Shown here in pieces: positions 34,052-43,628 of a stretch of 64,000 nucleotides of DNA. This DNA comes from an uncultured Pseudomonadota bacterium (lineage in GTDB: Bacteria; Pseudomonadota; Gammaproteobacteria; Xanthomonadales; Wenzhouxiangellaceae). The stretch's first letter is position 1. Each line of letters begins with the position of its first letter. A program made the translations under genes and the position numbers. The stretch is from positions 1 through 64,000 of the forward strand of contig CAKZPB010000106.1 of the NCBI GenBank assembly GCA_937138395.1, written 5' to 3'. The notes beneath the pieces are model-generated. The model was not told the DNA's origin. It ran no database searches and saw nothing but the letters and a program-made list of their open reading frames with translations.

Positions 34052-36358
34052 GTGACAACCGCTACTAACCCACACGTGTCATCGGCGCAAAGGCTACGGC
34101 CTGGATTTCGCTCTGCGCTGCTTGCACTGCTGTTTCTGGCGTTATTGCTGACCGCCACGATCTACCTCTATCGCGTGTTGGATCAGGGCGAGCAAGATTA
34201 CATTGATCGTCACCTGTACAACATTGTTACCCATATCCAGAGCGATATCGAACGAGGCGCGGTCCGACATCAGTTCGTGCAGTCGCGCATGGCTGCACGG
34301 TTGGCCTTGGGTAATGTCAGTAACCGGCCGCTCTGGGCACAGGATGTGCAGCGCTTGTTTCAGGAGTACCCCTCTTATTTGCTGGTTGCGGTGCTCGATA
34401 GCGATCTCAACACGCTTTGGGTCGAGTCGCGCGACGCACTGAATATCGTCGAGGGGGATCCATTTCCGATCCGTCCTGAAGCCAGGCGCATGCTGGCCGA
34501 CATGCCGCTCGATGCTCGTGCACGCATCCTCGAGCCCACACCCGGGATTTACCTCGGACAGGAAGCGGCCATGACCGTGGTCACACCGGTGGTCGACGAA
34601 CAACAGATTACCCACTGGCTGGCGGTGATCAATCAGCCATCGGTATCCATCACCAATATGCTGTCCGATTTTTACCTTGAAGAAGTGTTGATCTCGGTAC
34701 GAATCGCTGATGATGAATTCGTCATTTCACCTGACCGGGACGCGCTCAGTGATGTCAGTCCCCTGAGCGGATCGTTGGTCATGCCGTTCACGAACGGACA
34801 GGGCCAGATCGAATTTGACGTCAGCCTGTTGGAATCCATTCGGCAACAGATGCACAGTGAACTGCCGATTATCGTATTGGTTCTGGGTAGTCTGCTGTCG
34901 TTTCTGGTTGTGCTTGCGGCGTGGTTGGGTATGTCCAGCAGCCAACAAGCGCGCGAGCTGAGCCTTTCGAATGCATCGCTGCAGAGCGAAATCATGGAAC
35001 GCGAATTGGCCGAACAGGAACTGGAGGCATTGCTAACGCACGATTCCCTGACCGGTTTGCTGAATCGCAAGGGCGTCTTGCAGCACTTGCAGGACCGGCT
35101 GGGATATGAACAGTTGGAGCCGGTTACTGCGGTCATGCTGATCGATCTGGACCGGTTCAAGGATATCAACGAAACCCTGGGCCACCAGTTTGGCGATGAG
35201 CTTCTGATGCGCGTGCCGGATCGGCTTTACCAGGATTTGCACAAGCATGACGAGCTGTCGCGTCTGGGCGGGGATGAGTTTCTGGTCGTGGCATCGCGCA
35301 GTCACGCTGATCAGATTCATCGCCTGGCCAAGACCTTGCTGGCGTCGTTGGAGCAGGCCTTCGAAGTTGATGATCGCCAGCTATTTATCACCGCAAGCGT
35401 CGGCATTGCGCTCCTGGAAACCTCATCGACTGATGCATCGGAGTTGATTCAGAATGCCGATATGGCGCTGTACAAAGCCAAGCAATCGGGGCGCAATCAA
35501 TATGCCTTTTTCAGTCCGGAAATGTTTGCCCAGGTCGAATATCGATTGAACTTGAGCCGTGATCTACGCGAGGCGATGAATAACGGCGAATTCGAAATGG
35601 CCTATCAGCCGGTCGTCAACCTGAAGGATTTGAGCCTGTGTGGACTCGAGGCGCTGCTGCGGTGGCCGCATAAGGATGGCTACAAGGTACCGCCAGCCGA
35701 TTTTGTGCGGGCAGCTGAAGAGACCGGCATGATGCATCAGCTCAATCAGTTCGCGCTCGAGCAAAGCCTGCACGACCTGAAGCACTGGCATCAGCTGACG
35801 TCCCAGCCGCCTTGGGTTGCAATCAATATTTCGGGCGTCCAGTTCAACGAGCCGGACTTCGTGCGCGAGCTGAGCATGCTGTTGCATCAGCATCGATTGG
35901 ACCCCGGCTGTATTCACCTTGAAATAACCGAGCGGATCCTGATCGAGAACATGGCGCGCAACCGCTCCATTCTCGAGCAACTGGATCAGATTGGTATTCC
36001 GATCGTGATTGATGACTTCGGCGTCGGCTATTCTTCACTGGCTTATATCAAGAACTTCCCGATCTCCACGGTGAAGATCGATCGCGGGTTTTTACGCACG
36101 ATCGAAACCGATCCCGAGGACCAGGCCATCACGCGGGCCATTATCAATCTTTCGTCGGATCTTGGGCTCGGCACCGTCGCCGAAGGTATTGAACATCCTG
36201 AACAGTTGAAGCGCTTGCGTGCTTACGGTTGCACGTATGGGCAGGGATTCCTGTTCATGCCACCAGCCGATGCTGCGACCATTGCCAAGTTATTGACCCA
36301 ACCGCCGCCGTGGGCTGATCTCGAATCGTCCGGTCCACGACTGGTTCAGCCTGGCTGA
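34052..36358 (+). CDS. Membrane GGDEF-EAL protein with periplasmic sensor
   Basis: Dual c-di-GMP protein of 768 residues. A helix at about 19-40 and another at about 275-295 (IIVLVLGSLLSFLVVLAAWLG) bracket a periplasmic CACHE/CHASE-like sensor. A coiled segment leads into a GGDEF domain with intact RLGGDEF and FKDINETLGH. The inhibitory RxxD site reads HKHD, so product feedback is likely lost. EAL follows with GLEALLRWP and IDDFGVGYSSL. GTG 34052 has AAGGGG upstream and is preferred. Whether synthase, hydrolase or both cannot be told. Confidence 0.88.
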   Translation: MTTATNPHVSSAQRLRPGFRSALLALLFLALLLTATIYLYRVLDQGEQDYIDRHLYNIVTHIQSDIERGAVRHQFVQSRMAARLALGNVSNRPLWAQDVQRLFQEYPSYLLVAVLDSDLNTLWVESRDALNIVEGDPFPIRPEARRMLADMPLDARARILEPTPGIYLGQEAAMTVVTPVVDEQQITHWLAVINQPSVSITNMLSDFYLEEVLISVRIADDEFVISPDRDALSDVSPLSGSLVMPFTNGQGQIEFDVSLLESIRQQMHSELPIIVLVLGSLLSFLVVLAAWLGMSSSQQARELSLSNASLQSEIMERELAEQELEALLTHDSLTGLLNRKGVLQHLQDRLGYEQLEPVTAVMLIDLDRFKDINETLGHQFGDELLMRVPDRLYQDLHKHDELSRLGGDEFLVVASRSHADQIHRLAKTLLASLEQAFEVDDRQLFITASVGIALLETSSTDASELIQNADMALYKAKQSGRNQYAFFSPEMFAQVEYRLNLSRDLREAMNNGEFEMAYQPVVNLKDLSLCGLEALLRWPHKDGYKVPPADFVRAAEETGMMHQLNQFALEQSLHDLKHWHQLTSQPPWVAINISGVQFNEPDFVRELSMLLHQHRLDPGCIHLEITERILIENMARNRSILEQLDQIGIPIVIDDFGVGYSSLAYIKNFPISTVKIDRGFLRTIETDPEDQAITRAIINLSSDLGLGTVAEGIEHPEQLKRLRAYGCTYGQGFLFMPPADAATIAKLLTQPPPWADLESSGPRLVQPG

Positions 36359-36434
36359 GCTCGCGATGGGCTTCAAGCCAGCTGCAGATTCATTGCTGCT
36401 TGTCGCGAATCGTAAACTGTGGCAAAGTCAGGTC

Positions 36435-36527
36435 ATGCTTCATGAGTACTCCATCACTTGGCCCGAACGCCTTTTTCCCGAACGGATGTTACGACGATCC
36501 GGCCTGCCCTTTCTGCTCGATGGTTGA
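36435..36527 (+). CDS. Candidate arginine-rich leader peptide
   Basis: Short reading frame of 30 codons starting ATG 36435 and ending TGA 36527, just upstream of the arginine cluster. Its middle, residues 11-21, reads ERLFPERMLRR, so four Arg codons (CGC, CGG, CGA, CGA) occur at positions 12, 17, 20 and 21. The stop codon region overlaps the strand that could pair with the terminator stem (see next entries). The ribosome-binding site is weak (CAGG three bases upstream). Conventional gene finding would miss it. Function as a leader peptide is inferred from position, Arg content and downstream structure. Confidence 0.55.
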   Translation: MLHEYSITWPERLFPERMLRRSGLPFLLDG

Positions 36528-36564
36528 TGTCATGCAAGATCTGAATGCAGACTATCCAGCCATT
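36519..36564 (+). promoter_or_regulatory. Possible antiterminator pairing
   Basis: GATGGTTG at 36519-36526 can pair with CAGCCATT at 36557-36564 (8 base pairs, two of them G-U). The second strand is the left arm and loop of the terminator, so the two structures exclude each other. The first strand contains the leader peptide's stop codon, so a ribosome finishing the leader would cover it and favour termination, and one stalled at the Arg codons would leave it free. Confidence 0.5.
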
Positions 36565-36579
36565 GGGCTGGTTTTTTTT
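36556..36579 (+). terminator. Attenuator-type intrinsic terminator before argF'
   Basis: A perfect 6-base stem (CCAGCC with GGCTGG) around ATTG is followed by eight T at 36572-36579. It ends only 10 bases before the carbamoyltransferase start at 36590. A terminator so close before the first gene of a biosynthetic cluster is best read as an attenuator. Confidence 0.75.
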
Positions 36580-36589
36580 GGATGATGAA

Positions 36590-37591
36590 ATGAAACACTT
36601 CCTGTCGACCACGGACTACTCGCGCACTGAATTACAGCATTTGCTGGACCAGTCCGCAGCCTTGAAGCAACACCCGGTTTCCGACGTGTTGGCCGGCAAA
36701 ACCATTGCCTTGATGTTTTTGAATCCATCGCTGAGGACCCGGACCTCGTTTGAAATCGCATCCTTTCAGCTGGGGGCCCACGCCGTTGTGCTTGAGCCCG
36801 GCAAGGGCGCTTGGGGGATCGAGTTCGAGCCCGGAGTGGTCATGGACGGCGATGCCGAAGAGCACATCGTCGAGGTTGCAGGCGTGTTGTCACGCTACTG
36901 CGATGCCATTGCCTTGCGGGCGTTCCCGCAGTTCAAGGATTGGTCCGTAGATCGCGAAGACCGGGTCATCCGGTCGCTGGCGCAGCACGCCAGCGTCCCG
37001 GTGATCAATATGGAAACCATTGTTCACCCCTGTCAGGAACTGGCCATGATGCGCACTATCCAGGACCATCTGGGAGAGCCGGACCAACGCAAGTTGCTGG
37101 TGACCTGGACCTGGCATCCGCGGCCGCTGAATACGGCGGTGGCAAATTCTGCGCTGTTGATGGCCAGCCAGTTTGGCATGGATATCACCCTGCTGATTCC
37201 GGATGAAGCCTACCGCCTGGACCCGCAGTTCATGCAGCAGGCAGAATCTCAGGCTGCCAGGTCGGGCGGTCGTATCCAGGTCAGCCAGGATATTGAGCAG
37301 GCCTATCGCGACGCGGACTGGGTCTACGCCAAGAGCTGGGGTGCTTTGCCTCTCTACGGCCAGCCCGCGCAAGAGGCCAGGCTACGCGCACCGTTCAAGC
37401 ATTTCATGGTTGATGAAGCCAAGATGGCGCTGACGCGCAATGCGCGCTTCAGTCATTGCCTGCCGCTGCGGCGCAATGTCAAGGCGACTGATGGAGTAAT
37501 GGACTCGAACGACTGCGTGGCGCTGGACGAGGCCGAGAACCGGCTGCACACGCAGAAAGCACTGCTGCTTGAATTACTGGGAGGACAATGA
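36590..37591 (+). CDS. argF': N-acetylornithine carbamoyltransferase (AOTCase)
   Basis: Transfers a carbamoyl group to N-acetylornithine giving N-acetylcitrulline; 333 residues. The carbamoyl phosphate site is FLNPSLRTRTSFE instead of the STRTR of ordinary OTCase, and the segment WGIEFEPGVVMDGDAEEH is the AOTCase hallmark. HPCQELAMM and HCLPLRRNVKATDGVMD complete the active site. The first gene of the arginine cluster, 10 bases after an intrinsic terminator. The neighbouring argE and argG are consistent with an acetylated pathway; substrate assignment comes from the motif. Confidence 0.92.
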   Translation: MKHFLSTTDYSRTELQHLLDQSAALKQHPVSDVLAGKTIALMFLNPSLRTRTSFEIASFQLGAHAVVLEPGKGAWGIEFEPGVVMDGDAEEHIVEVAGVLSRYCDAIALRAFPQFKDWSVDREDRVIRSLAQHASVPVINMETIVHPCQELAMMRTIQDHLGEPDQRKLLVTWTWHPRPLNTAVANSALLMASQFGMDITLLIPDEAYRLDPQFMQQAESQAARSGGRIQVSQDIEQAYRDADWVYAKSWGALPLYGQPAQEARLRAPFKHFMVDEAKMALTRNARFSHCLPLRRNVKATDGVMDSNDCVALDEAENRLHTQKALLLELLGGQ

Positions 37592-37592
37592 C

Positions 37593-38795
37593 ATGAGCAA
37601 GCCAGGCATCGTGCTCGCGTTTTCGGGCGGGCTGGATACCAGTTACTGCGTGCTCGCGCTGAAACAGCAGGGGTATGACGTGCATACCGCGTTTGTCGAT
37701 ACCGGCGGCGTCGATCAGAAACAGAGAGAGTGGATTGCACAGCGCGCGCGGACGTTGGGTGCGGTCGAGCACCATCAGTTGGAGGCTGGCGACGCGCTTT
37801 GGGATCAATTCGTGGTGCCGTTACTGTGGTCCGGTGCGCGCATGCTCGACCAGTATCCAATGCTCTGCTCGGATCGCTATGTCATTGTCGAGCGCTGTTT
37901 GCAGTTGGCCGATCAAATCGGCACTACACATTTTGCGCATGGCTGCACCGGCATGGGCAATGATCAGCTGCGGTTTGACCAGTCGGTACGAAGTCTTGGC
38001 GATTACACGATCCATGCACCCATTCGTGATCTGCAGCGTCAGACCACCAACGTGCGGGCACACGAGTTGGAGCTGATGCAGCAAGCCGGCATTGAGGTGC
38101 CCGAGTCAAACAGCCGTTATTCGATCAATGAAAATCTGCTGGGTGTCACGCTGTCGGGACAGGAAGTCGATGCGTTCGAGGCACCGGCCGACGATACTCG
38201 GGTGTGGTGTCGGCCACGATCCGAGTGGCCCGAAGGCCCAACGGATTGGCTGATTGGTTTCGAGCGTGGGCGAGCAGTTTCGCTTGATGGCGAGGCCTTG
38301 CCCGGGCCGAGCATGCTGGCACGCATGAATGAAGCGCTGGGCGCGTACGGTGTGGGTCGGCATTTGTACACCGGTGATGTTTCGATTGGGTTGAAGGGGC
38401 GCATCGTGTTCGAGTGTCCCGGAATCGCTGGTCTGATGACGGCGCATCGGGCATTGATGGATGCCGTCAATACGCGACTGCAGAATCAGTTCCGGCACTT
38501 GATTGCCGCGCGTTGGGCCGAGTTGGTCTACACCGGCTTTTTCTTCGAGCCACACAAGCGCGATCTGGAGGCCTATCTTCAAAGTGCGAACCAGTTCGTG
38601 ACCGGCCAGGTCCGCATCCGGACCGAAGGTGGCAACGTGATGGCGGTTGCGGTGAAATCCGACTACGTGCTTCGCGATGCCGAATCGGTCTATGCGCAGT
38701 CGGCTTCGTGGACGCCGGAACAGGCCGAAGGCTTTGTCAAATTGCTAGGCCAGAGCTCGACGCTGGCTCAGCGCGTGCGGTCCAAACCACAGTGA
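37593..38795 (+). CDS. argG: Argininosuccinate synthase
   Basis: ATP-dependent ligation of citrulline and aspartate, 400 residues. The nucleotide loop LAFSGGLDTSYC (PP-loop), HGCTGMGNDQLRFDQSV, IHAPIRDLQ and GRHLYTGDVSIGLKGR are visible. The start ATG 37593 lies in the GGAGGacaatgac leader directly after the argF' stop (1-base gap). The family of long-type ArgG seen in Xanthomonadales fits. Substrate citrulline is produced by the ArgE-like deacetylase next door. Confidence 0.94.
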   Translation: MSKPGIVLAFSGGLDTSYCVLALKQQGYDVHTAFVDTGGVDQKQREWIAQRARTLGAVEHHQLEAGDALWDQFVVPLLWSGARMLDQYPMLCSDRYVIVERCLQLADQIGTTHFAHGCTGMGNDQLRFDQSVRSLGDYTIHAPIRDLQRQTTNVRAHELELMQQAGIEVPESNSRYSINENLLGVTLSGQEVDAFEAPADDTRVWCRPRSEWPEGPTDWLIGFERGRAVSLDGEALPGPSMLARMNEALGAYGVGRHLYTGDVSIGLKGRIVFECPGIAGLMTAHRALMDAVNTRLQNQFRHLIAARWAELVYTGFFFEPHKRDLEAYLQSANQFVTGQVRIRTEGGNVMAVAVKSDYVLRDAESVYAQSASWTPEQAEGFVKLLGQSSTLAQRVRSKPQ

Positions 38796-39889
38796 ATGGC
38801 AGGGTGATTACTGAACGCATCATTGCCCACCTGTCTGCGCTGGTTGCCTGCGACAGCCAGAACCCGCCGCGTGCGCTATCAGCGACCAGCCCGATGTTCA
38901 GCTACATCCAGGACCAGCTCGGCGCGAACTTCGAGTTTGACCTGGTCGACCACGGCGACGGCCATGTCACGTTGCTGGCCGAACGGGGTCGAACCACGAC
39001 GCTATTCAATTGTCACCTGGATACCGTGCCGGCCGGCGCGGGCTGGTCGCATTCACCGCTTGAGTTGATCGTGCGCAATGAGCGCGCCTATGGCCGGGGC
39101 AGTTGCGATATCAAGGGTGCAGCAGCGGTCTTGATCGCGCTCAGTCAAGCATCCGAAGCGCCGATGGCACTGTTGTTTACGACCGACGAAGAAGGCGCCG
39201 GCGGTTGCTGCGTTCAGCGTTTTCTGGAATCCAGCCACGCACAACGCTATGAGCGCGTGGTCGTATGTGAGCCGACTGCCTGTCGCGCCGTGCTGTCGCA
39301 CAGGGGCTTTCTTTCAGTCAAGGGCCAGTTTTTTGGCGCTGCCGGCCATTCATCAGAATCACGCGCGTTGACCGACAATGCAATTCATCGCTTCGCAAAC
39401 TGGTTGGCCGCCGCATTGACCTATTGCAGCGCCGAGGCGGAAGCCGGGCGCGAAACCTGTTTCAATGTCGGCACCGTGGATGGCGGCATCAAGAGCAATG
39501 TGATCGCTGATCATCTGGACGTGCACTGGTCCGCTCGCTTATTGCCGGGCCAGGATAACCAGCAATTGCTTGAAACGCTGAAAGGGCTCAGCAGTCCAGC
39601 AGATGCCGAGTGGCTGGTGCCGTTCTCAGGGCCCTCGTTTCCTTCATCTTGTGTGGATTCGGAATCGGCGCGCCAGTGGATGAATCAGCACCGTGTGCCG
39701 ATGATCGAGGCCGTTGACTTCTGGACCGAAGCGTCGTTGTTTTCAGCCGCAGGCAAAGACGCCGTCGTGCTGGGGCCCGGCCATATCGAGCAGGCGCATA
39801 CCGTCGACGAATGGGTCGCGATTGATCAGCTGAACGAGGCCATCGAGGTGTATGCGCGGCTGCTGGCGGAGCCCCAGCAGGATGACTGA
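38792..39889 (+). CDS. argE': Acetylcitrulline/acetylornithine deacetylase (ArgE-like)
   Basis: M20-family zinc deacetylase of 365 residues. Zinc ligand motifs are FNCHLDTVPAG and GRGSCDIKGAAAV, then TTDEEGAGG with the catalytic Glu. The dimerisation segment HSSESRALTDNA and C-terminal HTVDEWVAID complete the fold. With AOTCase next door the natural substrate is most likely N-acetylcitrulline, as in Xanthomonas; specificity is not visible in the sequence. The GTG start at 38792 overlaps the argG stop (GTGA), implying translational coupling. Confidence 0.9.
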   Translation: MNGRVITERIIAHLSALVACDSQNPPRALSATSPMFSYIQDQLGANFEFDLVDHGDGHVTLLAERGRTTTLFNCHLDTVPAGAGWSHSPLELIVRNERAYGRGSCDIKGAAAVLIALSQASEAPMALLFTTDEEGAGGCCVQRFLESSHAQRYERVVVCEPTACRAVLSHRGFLSVKGQFFGAAGHSSESRALTDNAIHRFANWLAAALTYCSAEAEAGRETCFNVGTVDGGIKSNVIADHLDVHWSARLLPGQDNQQLLETLKGLSSPADAEWLVPFSGPSFPSSCVDSESARQWMNQHRVPMIEAVDFWTEASLFSAAGKDAVVLGPGHIEQAHTVDEWVAIDQLNEAIEVYARLLAEPQQDD

Positions 39890-41246
39890 GATTCGTCCTA
39901 TCGTGACCGAGCTGCTTGGTCAACTCGGCTCATCTCGCGAGGCACGACAATATCTGGAGCAGTTCTCGCGCGTCAGCGAAACCCGCTTTGCCGTCATCAA
40001 GGTTGGCGGTGGCGTGTTGGCCGACGAGCTCAACGAGCTGGCCGCTGCGCTGGCTTTTTTGCACCGGCTGGGTTTGCATCCAATCGTATTGCACGGTGCC
40101 GGGCCACAACTGGATCAGGCGCTGGACGACGCCGGCGTTGTGACCGAGAAAAAAGACGGGCTTCGAGTCACGACCGAACAGGTCATGGCCGTGGCGCGCC
40201 CGGTGATCTATCGTGCAAATGCACGCCTGGTTGATGCGCTCGAGCGGATGGGCGTACGCGCTCGTGGTTTGCAGCACGGTGTGTTCGAGTGTGGATTCGA
40301 GGACCGCGAACAGCTCGGGCTGGTAGGCCGAATCGAAGCCGTCGAGCTGGAATCGATCCAGGCCGCAGTGGCCTCGGGCCAGATGCCGGTGGTGGCCTGT
40401 CTCGGCGAAACACGCTCCGGCCAGGTACTGAATATCAACGCGGATGTTGCAACCCGCGAGCTGGTCTGGAAGCTTGAGCCGTTCAAGGTGATCTTTCTGA
40501 CGCCGACCGGCGGGCTGCTGGACGCGCACCAACAGATCATCTCGGCCATCAGCCTGAATCAGGATTATGACGATCTGATGGATCAACCCTGGGTTCACTC
40601 CGGCATGCAGCTGAAGCTGAAACAGATTCACGCCATGCTGGAGCCATTGGCGCCATCGGCTTCAGTGTCGATTACATCGTCGTCGCAGTTGACTCGGGAA
40701 CTGTTTACGCATACCGGTGCAGGCACACTGATTCGTAAAGGCGAGCGCATTGACTGGTTCGACCAGCCCGGTGCCGAGCAATGGCAACGGCTCGAGCCCT
40801 TGCTGGAAGCCAGTTTCGGTCGCCGCCTGCACCCAGACTGGCTGGACGACCGCGAGATCGAAGGCCTGCTGCTGGCCGAAAGCGGACGGGCAGCGGCACT
40901 GATCGTTCGTGGTCGAGGCGACATCGCCTATCTGGACAAGATCGTGGTGACACCTGAAGCCCGTGGCGAAGGTCTTGGGGCTGCACTGTGGCAGTCCCTG
41001 CGTCAGCGTTTTCCCAGCATGTATTGGCGGGCCCGGATCGGCAACCCGATCGCTGGCTGGTATTTCCAGCAAGCCCGCACTTCGCACCGCGACGAGCCGT
41101 GGGTGGTATTTACGACTGGCGTCGAAGATGATGCGCTGGTCAGTCAGCTTGTGTCCGATGCATCAGCGCGCGATTCAGGCTGGACTGAAAATCCAGGGTT
41201 TGAACACGGCCCACAGATTGACACTGATCGATTCAAGGGCGAATGA
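39882..41246 (+). CDS. argB: Fused N-acetylglutamate kinase / N-acetylglutamate synthase
   Basis: Two-domain protein of 454 residues. The N-terminal amino-acid kinase domain has VIKVGGGVLADEL, LHGAGPQLDQALDDAG, MPVVACLGETRSGQVLNINAD and ELVWKLEPFKVIFLTPTGGLL. The C-terminal GNAT domain has AYLDKIVVTPEARGEGLGAA and WRARIGNPIAGWYFQ, the acetyl-CoA loop being EARGEGLG. It supplies both the first (synthase) and second (kinase) step of arginine synthesis, as in the NAGS/K fusions known from Xanthomonadales. ATG 39882 overlaps the argE' end by 8 bases. Confidence 0.9.
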   Translation: MTEIRPIVTELLGQLGSSREARQYLEQFSRVSETRFAVIKVGGGVLADELNELAAALAFLHRLGLHPIVLHGAGPQLDQALDDAGVVTEKKDGLRVTTEQVMAVARPVIYRANARLVDALERMGVRARGLQHGVFECGFEDREQLGLVGRIEAVELESIQAAVASGQMPVVACLGETRSGQVLNINADVATRELVWKLEPFKVIFLTPTGGLLDAHQQIISAISLNQDYDDLMDQPWVHSGMQLKLKQIHAMLEPLAPSASVSITSSSQLTRELFTHTGAGTLIRKGERIDWFDQPGAEQWQRLEPLLEASFGRRLHPDWLDDREIEGLLLAESGRAAALIVRGRGDIAYLDKIVVTPEARGEGLGAALWQSLRQRFPSMYWRARIGNPIAGWYFQQARTSHRDEPWVVFTTGVEDDALVSQLVSDASARDSGWTENPGFEHGPQIDTDRFKGE

Positions 41247-41331
41247 TGACAAGGGTTGAATAGATGATGCATTCAGATCTTTATTATCGGTGTTCACGCG
41301 TGTATATCGGTGGACCGTTCGGGCGTTGCAC

Positions 41332-42309
41332 ATGACCTTACAACCTCCAAAACGGATGGTGTTGATCGGTGCACGCGGCTATGTTGGGCAGGAATTGCTG
41401 CAGTTGATTGCGCAGCATGAGCACATCGACCTGCTGCTGGCCAGCTCCAGCACCCAGTCGGGCCAGCCGATTGCGTCGCTCCTGCCGGAATGGCCGGATG
41501 AACAGTGCTTCGTAAAGCTGAAGCAAGAAGAGGTGCGTGGGCTCGATGCCGATGTATGGGTGCTGGCGGTCCCGAATGAGCAGAGCCGGGCGTGGGCCGA
41601 GGTCATCCGTCAGGCTCACCCGGATTGCGTCATCCTGGATCTCGGTGCTGACTTTCGATTCGAGCCGGATTGGGTATATGGCCTGACCGAATGGAATCGA
41701 GCCGCGCTGTCGAGCGCGAAGTCGATCGCCAACCCGGGTTGCTACGCGACGGGCGCTCAGCTGGGCTTGATGCCGATTCGGGAACTGCTGGCCTCGCCAC
41801 CGGTGATTTTTGGCGTCTCGGGCTATAGCGGCGCGGGCCGCACGCCTTCGCCGCGAAATGATCCGGAGCGCCTGGCCGACAATCTGATTCCGTATGCCTT
41901 GGGTGGTCACGTCCATGAGCGCGAAATCAGTCAGCATCTTGGTCGAATGGTGCGGTTTTATCCGCACGTAGCAGGTTTTTTCCGCGGCCTGACACTGACC
42001 ATCGCGGTGCGCTTGACCGAGCCGGTGGATCAGGCCGATCTGCTGCAGCGCTTCGAGCATGTCTATGGGAATGAGCCGCTGATTCATACGGCCGAGAAAA
42101 TTCCCGAAATCAGGGATCTACAGCCACGCGTTACTGTTCGGATCGGCGGCTTCAGCGTCGATGGGCGCGATGCGCATCGCGCCTGCTTTGTGGTTGTACT
42201 GGATAACCTGCTCAAAGGTGCTGCGTCTCAGGCCCTGCAGAACATCAATCTGGCGCTTGGGTATGATGAACTTCATGCGGTCCTACATTCCAACGAGTTG
42301 ACATCATGA
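41332..42309 (+). CDS. argC: N-acetyl-gamma-glutamyl-phosphate reductase
   Basis: NADPH-dependent reductase, 325 residues. GARGYVGQELL at the N terminus is the NADP loop, LDLGADFRFE follows, and the catalytic Cys is in IANPGCYATGAQLGL. VSGYSGAGRTPSPRN and FYPHVAGFFRGLTLTIAV are family marks. The ATG 41332 gives the normal start. An 85-base gap to the upstream gene is the longest inside the cluster and might hold an internal promoter. The stop overlaps argH (ATGA). Confidence 0.94.
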   Translation: MTLQPPKRMVLIGARGYVGQELLQLIAQHEHIDLLLASSSTQSGQPIASLLPEWPDEQCFVKLKQEEVRGLDADVWVLAVPNEQSRAWAEVIRQAHPDCVILDLGADFRFEPDWVYGLTEWNRAALSSAKSIANPGCYATGAQLGLMPIRELLASPPVIFGVSGYSGAGRTPSPRNDPERLADNLIPYALGGHVHEREISQHLGRMVRFYPHVAGFFRGLTLTIAVRLTEPVDQADLLQRFEHVYGNEPLIHTAEKIPEIRDLQPRVTVRIGGFSVDGRDAHRACFVVVLDNLLKGAASQALQNINLALGYDELHAVLHSNELTS

Positions 42310-43628
42310 GTGATCCGATCTGGAAGAAATCCGGTCAGCAGCCGGTGCCAGAACACATCATGCAGTTCCTGGCCGGTGATGACGTCGAGCTGGATCGTGA
42401 GCTGTTTGTTTTCGATATTCGTGCCAGCCGGGCACATGCGCGCGGCCTGGCCCGAATCAACGTGTTGTCGACCGAGGATGCCGAAGCGCTGGTCAAATCC
42501 CTCGATCGACTGCGCGCGGCATTTTTGAGCGGTGAGTTTGTGCTCGATCAGCGATTCGAGGATGGTCATTCCGCCATTGAGCACTGGCTGGTCGACCAGC
42601 TTGGAGAACTTGGTCTCAGGATTCACGCCGGGCGAAGCCGCAATGATCAGGTTGCGGTTGCCATCCGGCTGTATTTGAAAGATCGGCTCGAAACGCTGGC
42701 CGAACAGTGCGCGGCCATTGCGGACCTGTGTCTCGAGCGGGCCGAGGCCGAAGCGATGGTGCCGATTCCAGGCCATACCCATTTGCAGCAAGCCATGCCC
42801 AGCTCACTGGGCCTATGGTGGGCAGGGCACGCTGAGGGTTTTGTCGACAATCTGGAGTTGACGCTTGCGATCCACTGCTGGCTGAACGCCAGCCCGTTGG
42901 GCACGGCATCCGGTTTTGGCGTGAACTTCCCGCTCGATCGGGATAGCGTTGCCGATGCGCTGGGTTTCGATCGCCTGGTGGTCAATCCACAGAATGCCCA
43001 GGCTGGTCGCGGCAAGGTCGAGCTGCGCGCACTGGATGCGTTGTCGGCAGCGACCTCGGATCTGCGTCGGCTGTGCTGGGACCTGAGCCTGTTTGCCAGC
43101 CAGGAGTTCGGCTATGCGCAGCTTGGCGATGTGTTCTGCACGGGATCTTCAATCATGCCGAACAAACACAATCCGGACAGCGTCGAGCTGTTGCGCGCGT
43201 TGCATGCAACGGTGGTCGCTGCGCGAGTCGAGTTGGAATCCATTCTGAGCTTGCCGTCCGGTTATCAGCGCGACCTGCAGGACACCAAGCCGCCGGTATT
43301 GCGTGCTTTCCGTAAAGCACTGGCGGGTCTGGCGCTGGTGCCTGCGATGTTGTCCAGCGTGCGTTGGAATACCGAGCGCATGCGCGAGGCCATTGGTCCG
43401 GCGATGTTCGCCACTGACCGGGCGAACCAGCGGGTCGCCGAAGGTCAGAGTTTCCGCGAGGCCTATCGCGCCGTTGCCACTGAAATCGCCGAGTTGGGTC
43501 AACCATCGGCTGACCAAAGCCTGGCTGATCGAGTATCACCGGGCGCGTGTGGCCAACTGATGCTTGATCGAATTCGGCAGCGGTTGACCGAGGCCCGAGC
43601 CAGCCATCCATCATTGACTCAGGAGTAA
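42306..43628 (+). CDS. argH: Argininosuccinate lyase
   Basis: Final step of arginine synthesis, splitting argininosuccinate to arginine and fumarate; 440 residues. Fumarase-superfamily motifs GRSRNDQVAVAIRLYLKD and the signature GSSIMPNKHNPDSVELLR are visible, with ELDREL and HTHLQQAMPSSLG. ATG 42306 overlaps the argC stop by 4 bases. The last gene of the arginine run; a lipoprotein gene follows after 3 bases. Confidence 0.94.
   Translation: MSDPIWKKSGQQPVPEHIMQFLAGDDVELDRELFVFDIRASRAHARGLARINVLSTEDAEALVKSLDRLRAAFLSGEFVLDQRFEDGHSAIEHWLVDQLGELGLRIHAGRSRNDQVAVAIRLYLKDRLETLAEQCAAIADLCLERAEAEAMVPIPGHTHLQQAMPSSLGLWWAGHAEGFVDNLELTLAIHCWLNASPLGTASGFGVNFPLDRDSVADALGFDRLVVNPQNAQAGRGKVELRALDALSAATSDLRRLCWDLSLFASQEFGYAQLGDVFCTGSSIMPNKHNPDSVELLRALHATVVAARVELESILSLPSGYQRDLQDTKPPVLRAFRKALAGLALVPAMLSSVRWNTERMREAIGPAMFATDRANQRVAEGQSFREAYRAVATEIAELGQPSADQSLADRVSPGACGQLMLDRIRQRLTEARASHPSLTQE

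Follow-up and report, generated by a model that had tools for sequence, protein, structure and literature searches.

A probable arginine-responsive attenuator in front of the argF' gene cluster of an uncultured Wenzhouxiangellaceae bacterium and its relatives

The 64,000-nucleotide stretch analysed here (the window; positions 1 to 64,000, forward strand, of contig CAKZPB010000106.1, assembly GCA_937138395.1) comes from an uncultured Pseudomonadota bacterium of the family Wenzhouxiangellaceae (Gammaproteobacteria, Xanthomonadales), with a genome of 2.84 Mb in 142 contigs and a completeness of 99.45%. It carries on its plus strand a six-gene arginine cluster in the order argF'-argG-argE'-argA/B-argC-argH, preceded by a short interval that probably contains a transcription attenuator. 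The first gene of the cluster and the first predicted to be controlled, argF' (36590-37591), encodes an N-acetylornithine carbamoyltransferase (NCBIfam NF003384, 518.7 bits, cut-off 288), and the named contigs matching it best belong mostly to Wenzhouxiangella and Wenzhouxiangellaceae. The remaining genes, including an argA/B fusion with a kinase and a NAT domain, were assigned by profile matches at 37593-43628; the nearest model for the argG product was argininosuccinate synthase, with a score below its cut-off (558.8 vs. 603). Upstream of the interval, on the same strand, a GGDEF/EAL gene ends at 36358. No tRNA was found by a tRNA scan of the window, and a whole-window Rfam scan returned no family at its gathering score, the T-box covariance model included.

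The interval contains a 30-codon open reading frame (ORF) on the plus strand at 36435-36527, confirming the frame proposed by an earlier sequence-only reading of this DNA, and its translation is MLHEYSITWPERLFPERMLRRSGLPFLLDG*, with Arg at positions 12, 17, 20 and 21. The corresponding codons are CGC, CGG, CGA and CGA, the last two forming a tandem (R20, R21; 36492-36497) that is the predicted stall site, CGA being over-used in leader Arg clusters. Taken alone, the Arg codons of the window sequence prove little, because its densest cluster has exactly three Arg in six codons, a density that 26.6% of 10,400 ORF-containing dinucleotide shuffles of such regions also reach. A longer in-frame start, giving 53 codons, was rejected since it would precede the promoter-like box described below. 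Another candidate, a 47-codon frame with three Cys residues (GCYDDPACPFC; 36442-36585) that overlaps the leader and the terminator, was rejected as a real small protein. It had no Pfam match, and in 60 related genomes it gave matches at E ≤ 1 in 10 genomes, none of them at argF', with a sole match below 0.01 (genome G017) that lies elsewhere in that genome and contains an internal stop; this frame is probably due to chance.

Upstream of the ORF, also on the plus strand, a −35-like hexamer (TTGTCG, 36400-36405), read from the sequence and scored, is separated by a 17-nt spacer from an extended −10-like box (TGG-CAAAGT, 36420-36428), identified by the conservation of TGTGGCA, invariant across six aligned members of the genus, and by its promoter score. 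The −10 hexamer CAAAGT (36423-36428) ends 6 nt before the leader ATG. In the 94 loci whose ATG precedes the stop by 22-45 codons, promoter scores were highest for a −10 hexamer ending 7 nt before the ATG (mean 6.69, with at least 6.5 in 52 of the 94), compared with means of 3.97-5.14 at 10-44 nt before the ATG, where 7-23 loci reach 6.5. The predicted transcription start is at about 36434-36436, no more than one or two bases from the A of the ATG, and the leader of the window is probably leaderless.

Downstream of the ORF, an intrinsic terminator (CCAGCC-ATTG-GGCTGG-T8, plus strand, 36556-36579), recognised by sequence and predicted folding alone, ends 10 bases before argF', exactly as first described (a 6-base stem plus eight T). 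The strand reported to overlap the stop codon, GATGGTTG, does pair with CAGCCATT; however, this pairing is just the core of a larger structure, the predicted antiterminator having 21 pairs, not 8, between 36515-36536 and 36546-36568 of the plus strand. The 5' strand covers the final codons of the leader together with its stop, and the 3' strand includes the 5' arm of the terminator. Positions 36508-36573 have a folding energy of −25.0 kcal/mol, compared with a shuffle mean of −16.4 (z −2.90; 2 of 200 shuffles as good), and the terminator hairpin alone reaches −10.7 kcal/mol, compared with the −25.0 of the RNA freed by a stalled ribosome. The whole 158-nt leader folds no better than shuffles (z −0.75; 49 of 200 as good), the folding signal being limited to the stretch left free by the stalled ribosome. 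Assuming that the first free base lies 13 nt past the first base of the A-site codon, the predicted terminator probability rises from 0.00 for a ribosome at R21 to 1.00 for one at the stop codon, with a mean of 0.89 for shuffled spacers, and it flips from 0.03 to 0.95 as the first free base moves from 36517 to 36520.

The regions upstream of argF' were then compared in relatives, using 179 upstreams from whole genomes and named genome contigs, of which 150 were distinct after the removal of two too short and 27 duplicates (the family assignment of duplicate loci was made by hand from the duplicate list). Some hairpin was present in 110 upstreams; two (L015, L102) fell below the score cut and four (L113, L117, L168, L186) were dropped by hand, their best hairpin not adjoining argF', leaving a strong terminator near argF' in 104 of the 150. 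An ORF of at least 10 codons ending 18-55 nt before the terminator was found in 100 of these 104 loci (the others being L006, L010, L011 and L096), and every one of the 100 has at least three Arg in six codons, a density reached by 26.6% of the ORF-containing shuffles. Outside this set, L186 does have a leader, and L047 and L171 have an Arg leader and fail the terminator rule. At L196 the script chose the wrong frame. Arg ranked in the top 5% of shuffles at more loci than any other residue (47 of 104, followed by Met with 31 and Ala with 17), shuffles without an ORF being included and scored zero; as the sample covers the genomes listed and is weighted to close relatives, and the loci are phylogenetically non-independent, the shuffle percentages are not probabilities.

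The Arg leader was found in all six searched genomes of the same genus and in 10 of the 12 sampled families of the order, as were the terminator and the complementary strand at the leader end; the leader was not found in f6 (one genome examined) or f11 (two genomes). The peptides differ between lineages, with MKRIASKTRRARPLNPRQRRRNGPYPGWVA in the genus of the window, VVVRRRRP in Marinicella-type genomes, six consecutive Arg at L129 and LTSARMAAGMTSRARRP in Xanthomonadaceae-type genomes. A SAR86 genome offers a separate observation (L113, 2851-2964): an ORF ending in RRRRRSI stops 36 nt short of argF', no terminator was seen behind it, and the arrangement may be a translational version of the same control.

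The arrangement of these parts in the 100 loci is regular. The last Arg codon precedes the antiterminator strand by a median of 19.5 nt, and the commonest end of that strand, seen in 49 of the 100, is 2 nt before the end of the stop codon, a position at which a terminating ribosome would mask it. The complementarity between the leader end and the terminator arm averages 19.8, compared with 13.8 when shuffled, and is in the top 5% in 63 loci; the arm pairs differ jointly between lineages, as in GCTGGGT/ACCCAGC and GCCGGGT/ACCCGGC, which are given as examples and not as a formal covariation count. In equilibrium folding the mean terminator probability was 0.84 with the ribosome stalled, 0.99 with the ribosome at the stop and 0.97 with shuffled spacers. 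The stalled value was below at least 95% of the locus's own spacer shuffles in 46 loci, and the value with the ribosome at the stop exceeded 0.5 in 99.

An Rfam scan of the relatives matched family RF02242 (Xoo5) on the leader of L155 (244-367, 126.2 bits), among others, and 133 of 298 genomes of the order matched it at E ≤ 1e-3, 70 of them above the cut-off. No match was found in the genome of the window at E ≤ 1e-3 under stricter filters, none over the gathering score in the window, and none in L002 at E ≤ 0.5. The best three matches (L198-L200) lie upstream of argF' and contain a leader of the MTSRARR type with a hairpin and a T-run behind it. The model, filed by Rfam under the type 'Gene; sRNA', is 124 nt long, the length given in the original paper; its start lies 2 nt ahead of the leader AUG, and it extends over the Arg leader and the antiterminator strand without reaching the terminator. 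In Xanthomonas oryzae, the small RNA (sRNA) sRNA-Xoo5 was described as a 124-nt transcript, its 5' end mapped by rapid amplification of cDNA ends (RACE), between PXO_00354 and PXO_00353, and the protein table of that paper lists PXO_00353 as N-acetylornithine carbamoyltransferase and PXO_00352 as argininosuccinate synthase (PMC3039613). Northern blots gave bands of about 130 and 100 nt early in growth and just the shorter one later (PMC3039613). The word 'arginine' is absent from the main text of that paper, and the available passages draw no link between Xoo5 and arginine (PMC3039613). By position and content, RF02242 Xoo5 is the predicted arginine leader upstream of argF' in Xanthomonadaceae-type genomes. 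If the model starts where RACE placed the 5' end, the Xanthomonas transcript would begin just 2 nt ahead of its leader ATG, in agreement with a near-leaderless leader.

The sequence-only reading had noted that arginine operons are usually ruled by ArgR. The present genome gave no match to either ArgR domain (PF01316, PF02863) at 99.45% completeness in 142 contigs, and ArgR was not found in 59 of the 61 genomes searched, this one included. As a control, the N-terminal domain was recovered in 9 and the C-terminal domain in 8 of 14 reference genomes, including E. coli and B. subtilis. Both domains occur in two genomes (2 of 61, or 2 of the 48 with at least 90% completeness), G046 and G055 of f11, where roughly 1 kb separates ArgR from a divergent argF' (39-41% identity) and where the argF' upstreams (L156, L157) have neither terminator nor leader. 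This exception fits a switch of regulators, as if ArgR and the divergent argF' had been acquired together.

These observations make it very probable that the locus is a ribosome-mediated transcription attenuator that would set the expression of the arginine cluster by the supply of charged tRNA-Arg. The RNA would begin at or next to the leader ATG, so that a ribosome would load at the RNA 5' end; when Arg-tRNA is scarce, it would stall at the Arg codons CGA CGA, leaving the leader-end strand free to pair with the 5' arm of the terminator, and RNA polymerase would read through. The computed parts of this model are the ORF, the terminator, the antiterminator, the fold switch of the window, the conservation and the absence of ArgR, and the transcription start, the translation, the stalling and the response to arginine are inferred. 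The attenuator interpretation of the sequence-only reading is supported by the Arg codons, terminator and complementary strand of the relatives, by the missing ArgR and by the short RNA on record from the corresponding position in Xanthomonas, sRNA-Xoo5.

Several results weigh against this interpretation. The Arg cluster of the window is at the low end, a score of 3 being found in 57 of the 104 loci, and a stricter consensus promoter scan found no promoter here. The RNA of the window without a ribosome is predicted to fold as the antiterminator, and therefore an untranslated leader would read through. In equilibrium folding the stalled terminator probability fell below 0.5 in just 14 of the 100 loci, so that most homologues need an assumed co-transcriptional order of folding. 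The sizes given for sRNA-Xoo5 (124 nt in the description, about 130 and 100 nt on the Northern blots) are below the 155 nt from the model start to the T-run in L155, and therefore 3' trimming or processing must be assumed. Finally, the conservation expected of the Arg codons and terminator, so clear in the genus and across families, is patchy within the family of the window: among its 33 genomes with argF', 12 have leader and terminator, another 3 lack the ORF but have a terminator, and 18 have neither part, leaving 21 without the full element. This patchiness may reflect repeated loss. Some upstreams keep a TGGCA-type promoter-like box together with the terminator and have no Arg leader ORF (L006, L010, L011), and others keep the box without leader or terminator (L016, L018).

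Codon use and peptide conservation bear on what the leader senses. In the leader Arg clusters, CGG, AGA or AGG account for just 8 of 354 Arg codons, compared with about 26% of 822 in argF' genes, and CGA makes up about 37% of Arg codons, compared with 7%; the argF' reference consists of the leader-bearing loci among L045-L124 and overlaps the cluster set only partly. The codons CGU, CGC and CGA are read by one tRNA-Arg isoacceptor, and the bias fits a sensing of the charging of that isoacceptor. Selective charging of Arg isoacceptors is mentioned in the available part of an earlier paper (PMC1183508). The leader peptide itself could instead be the sensor, its nascent chain arresting the ribosome on arginine and the RNA switch reading this arrest and not codon starvation, comparable to the fungal arginine attenuator peptide and SpeFL. 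This is favoured by the motif MTSRARR, present in all 33 examined genomes of f2, f12, f3 and f4 taken by argF' alone, and by 51 loci found by the motif, where the flanking Ala (51 of 51, twice) and Gly (50 of 51) are conserved and third codon positions vary at several codons; as MTSRARR itself selected these loci, invariance within the motif is by construction, and within it the third base of the Thr and first Arg codons varies (0.55). Leaders among L078-L197 of the same four families show a conserved core SAR-x-A-x-GMTSRARR with variable third positions, which suggests that this core is under selection as a peptide. However, TCG (51 of 51) and an upstream GCC (49 of 51) are nearly frozen at synonymous sites, pointing to RNA-level constraint too, so that both kinds of constraint may act on MTSRARR leaders. 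Moreover, the leader of the window is not of the MTSRARR type, and it and other families keep just Arg clusters in differing contexts, which makes the peptide sensor unlikely as an explanation of the element.

The hairpin could also belong to the upstream GGDEF/EAL gene as its 3' terminator, or be a generic terminator between genes, with the ORF present by chance. That gene lies on the same strand, GC-rich DNA easily yields Arg codons, as the shuffles illustrate, and the three family members with a terminator and no ORF would fit. Nevertheless, a promoter-like box is conserved between the GGDEF/EAL gene and the ORF, the combination of ORF, spacing and complementary strand is found again at argF' in 10 of the 12 sampled families, and in the available passages on Xanthomonas the RACE-mapped 5' end appears to fall at the leader start, making this explanation very improbable. 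A trans-acting small RNA, which is how Xoo5 is filed in Rfam, would account for that classification and for the short RNAs on Northern blots, yet Xoo5 is directly upstream of argF' and comes with both an ORF containing Arg codons and a terminator. Obvious phenotypes were absent from all seven sRNA deletion mutants, and an effect of hfq deletion was named for Xoo1, 2 and 3 only in the passages available (PMC3039613). We regard a trans-acting role in place of cis attenuation as extremely improbable.

Returning to the attenuator, a broader reading would join these elements: the order would have largely replaced ArgR by a leaderless arginine attenuator reading the CGU/CGC/CGA isoacceptor, the Xanthomonadaceae-type leader would have evolved into a self-stalling SAR-x-A-x-GMTSRARR peptide, and the terminated transcript would be Xoo5. 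This combination is tentative, and we consider it rather doubtful as a whole. If the attenuator is real, it would account for the control of arginine synthesis in ArgR-less relatives of Xanthomonas, show that classical attenuation serves arginine too, and recast an orphan Rfam 'sRNA' family as cis-regulatory. It would also provide a natural series across related genomes in which promoter box, leader and terminator are kept, reduced or lost, and a testable claim on which tRNA-Arg isoacceptor is read.

Among known systems, the ribosome-mediated attenuators of proteobacteria, the trp, his, leu, ilv, thr and phe leaders, are the closest in design, sharing a short ORF with cognate codons, a terminator before the first gene, a competing antiterminator and a stop codon placed so that a terminating ribosome masks the antiterminator. 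The window has a short ORF with clustered cognate codons (four Arg in 30, with the homologue counts given above), a Rho-independent terminator, judged from its sequence, between this ORF and the first gene, and, in the predicted folds, an exclusive antiterminator masked by a terminating and not by a stalled ribosome. Unlike the classical leaders, it would sense arginine and is probably leaderless, and it needs no separate protector hairpin, as the ribosome at the stop codon would mask the strand directly. ArgR repression in E. coli and Bacillus concerns the same pathway and differs in using a DNA-binding repressor, whose domains were not found in this genome. RF02242 Xoo5 shares the position upstream of argF' and differs in being filed as an sRNA and in having no covariance model match in this genome. 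RNA control of arginine genes has been named for T-boxes in the available part of one paper (PMC1262725), and the word 'arginine' does not occur in that of another (PMC2965389). In the literature searched, which lay largely outside subscription papers, no paper on an arginine leader attenuator for this group was found. The fungal arginine attenuator peptide also has an Arg-linked leader and differs in working through nascent-chain arrest. The Salmonella speF leader, according to the part of the source available, shares an Arg-containing leader linked to arginine metabolism and differs in controlling a polyamine gene (PMC6386406). Compared with these two, the architecture of the window is that of plain starvation attenuation of a biosynthetic operon. 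The mechanism is classical, and in the literature searched its application to arginine, in an order that mostly lacks ArgR, appears new; the novelty lies in the amino acid, in the apparent leaderless start, in the scarcity of ArgR across the order and in the proposed identity with Xoo5.
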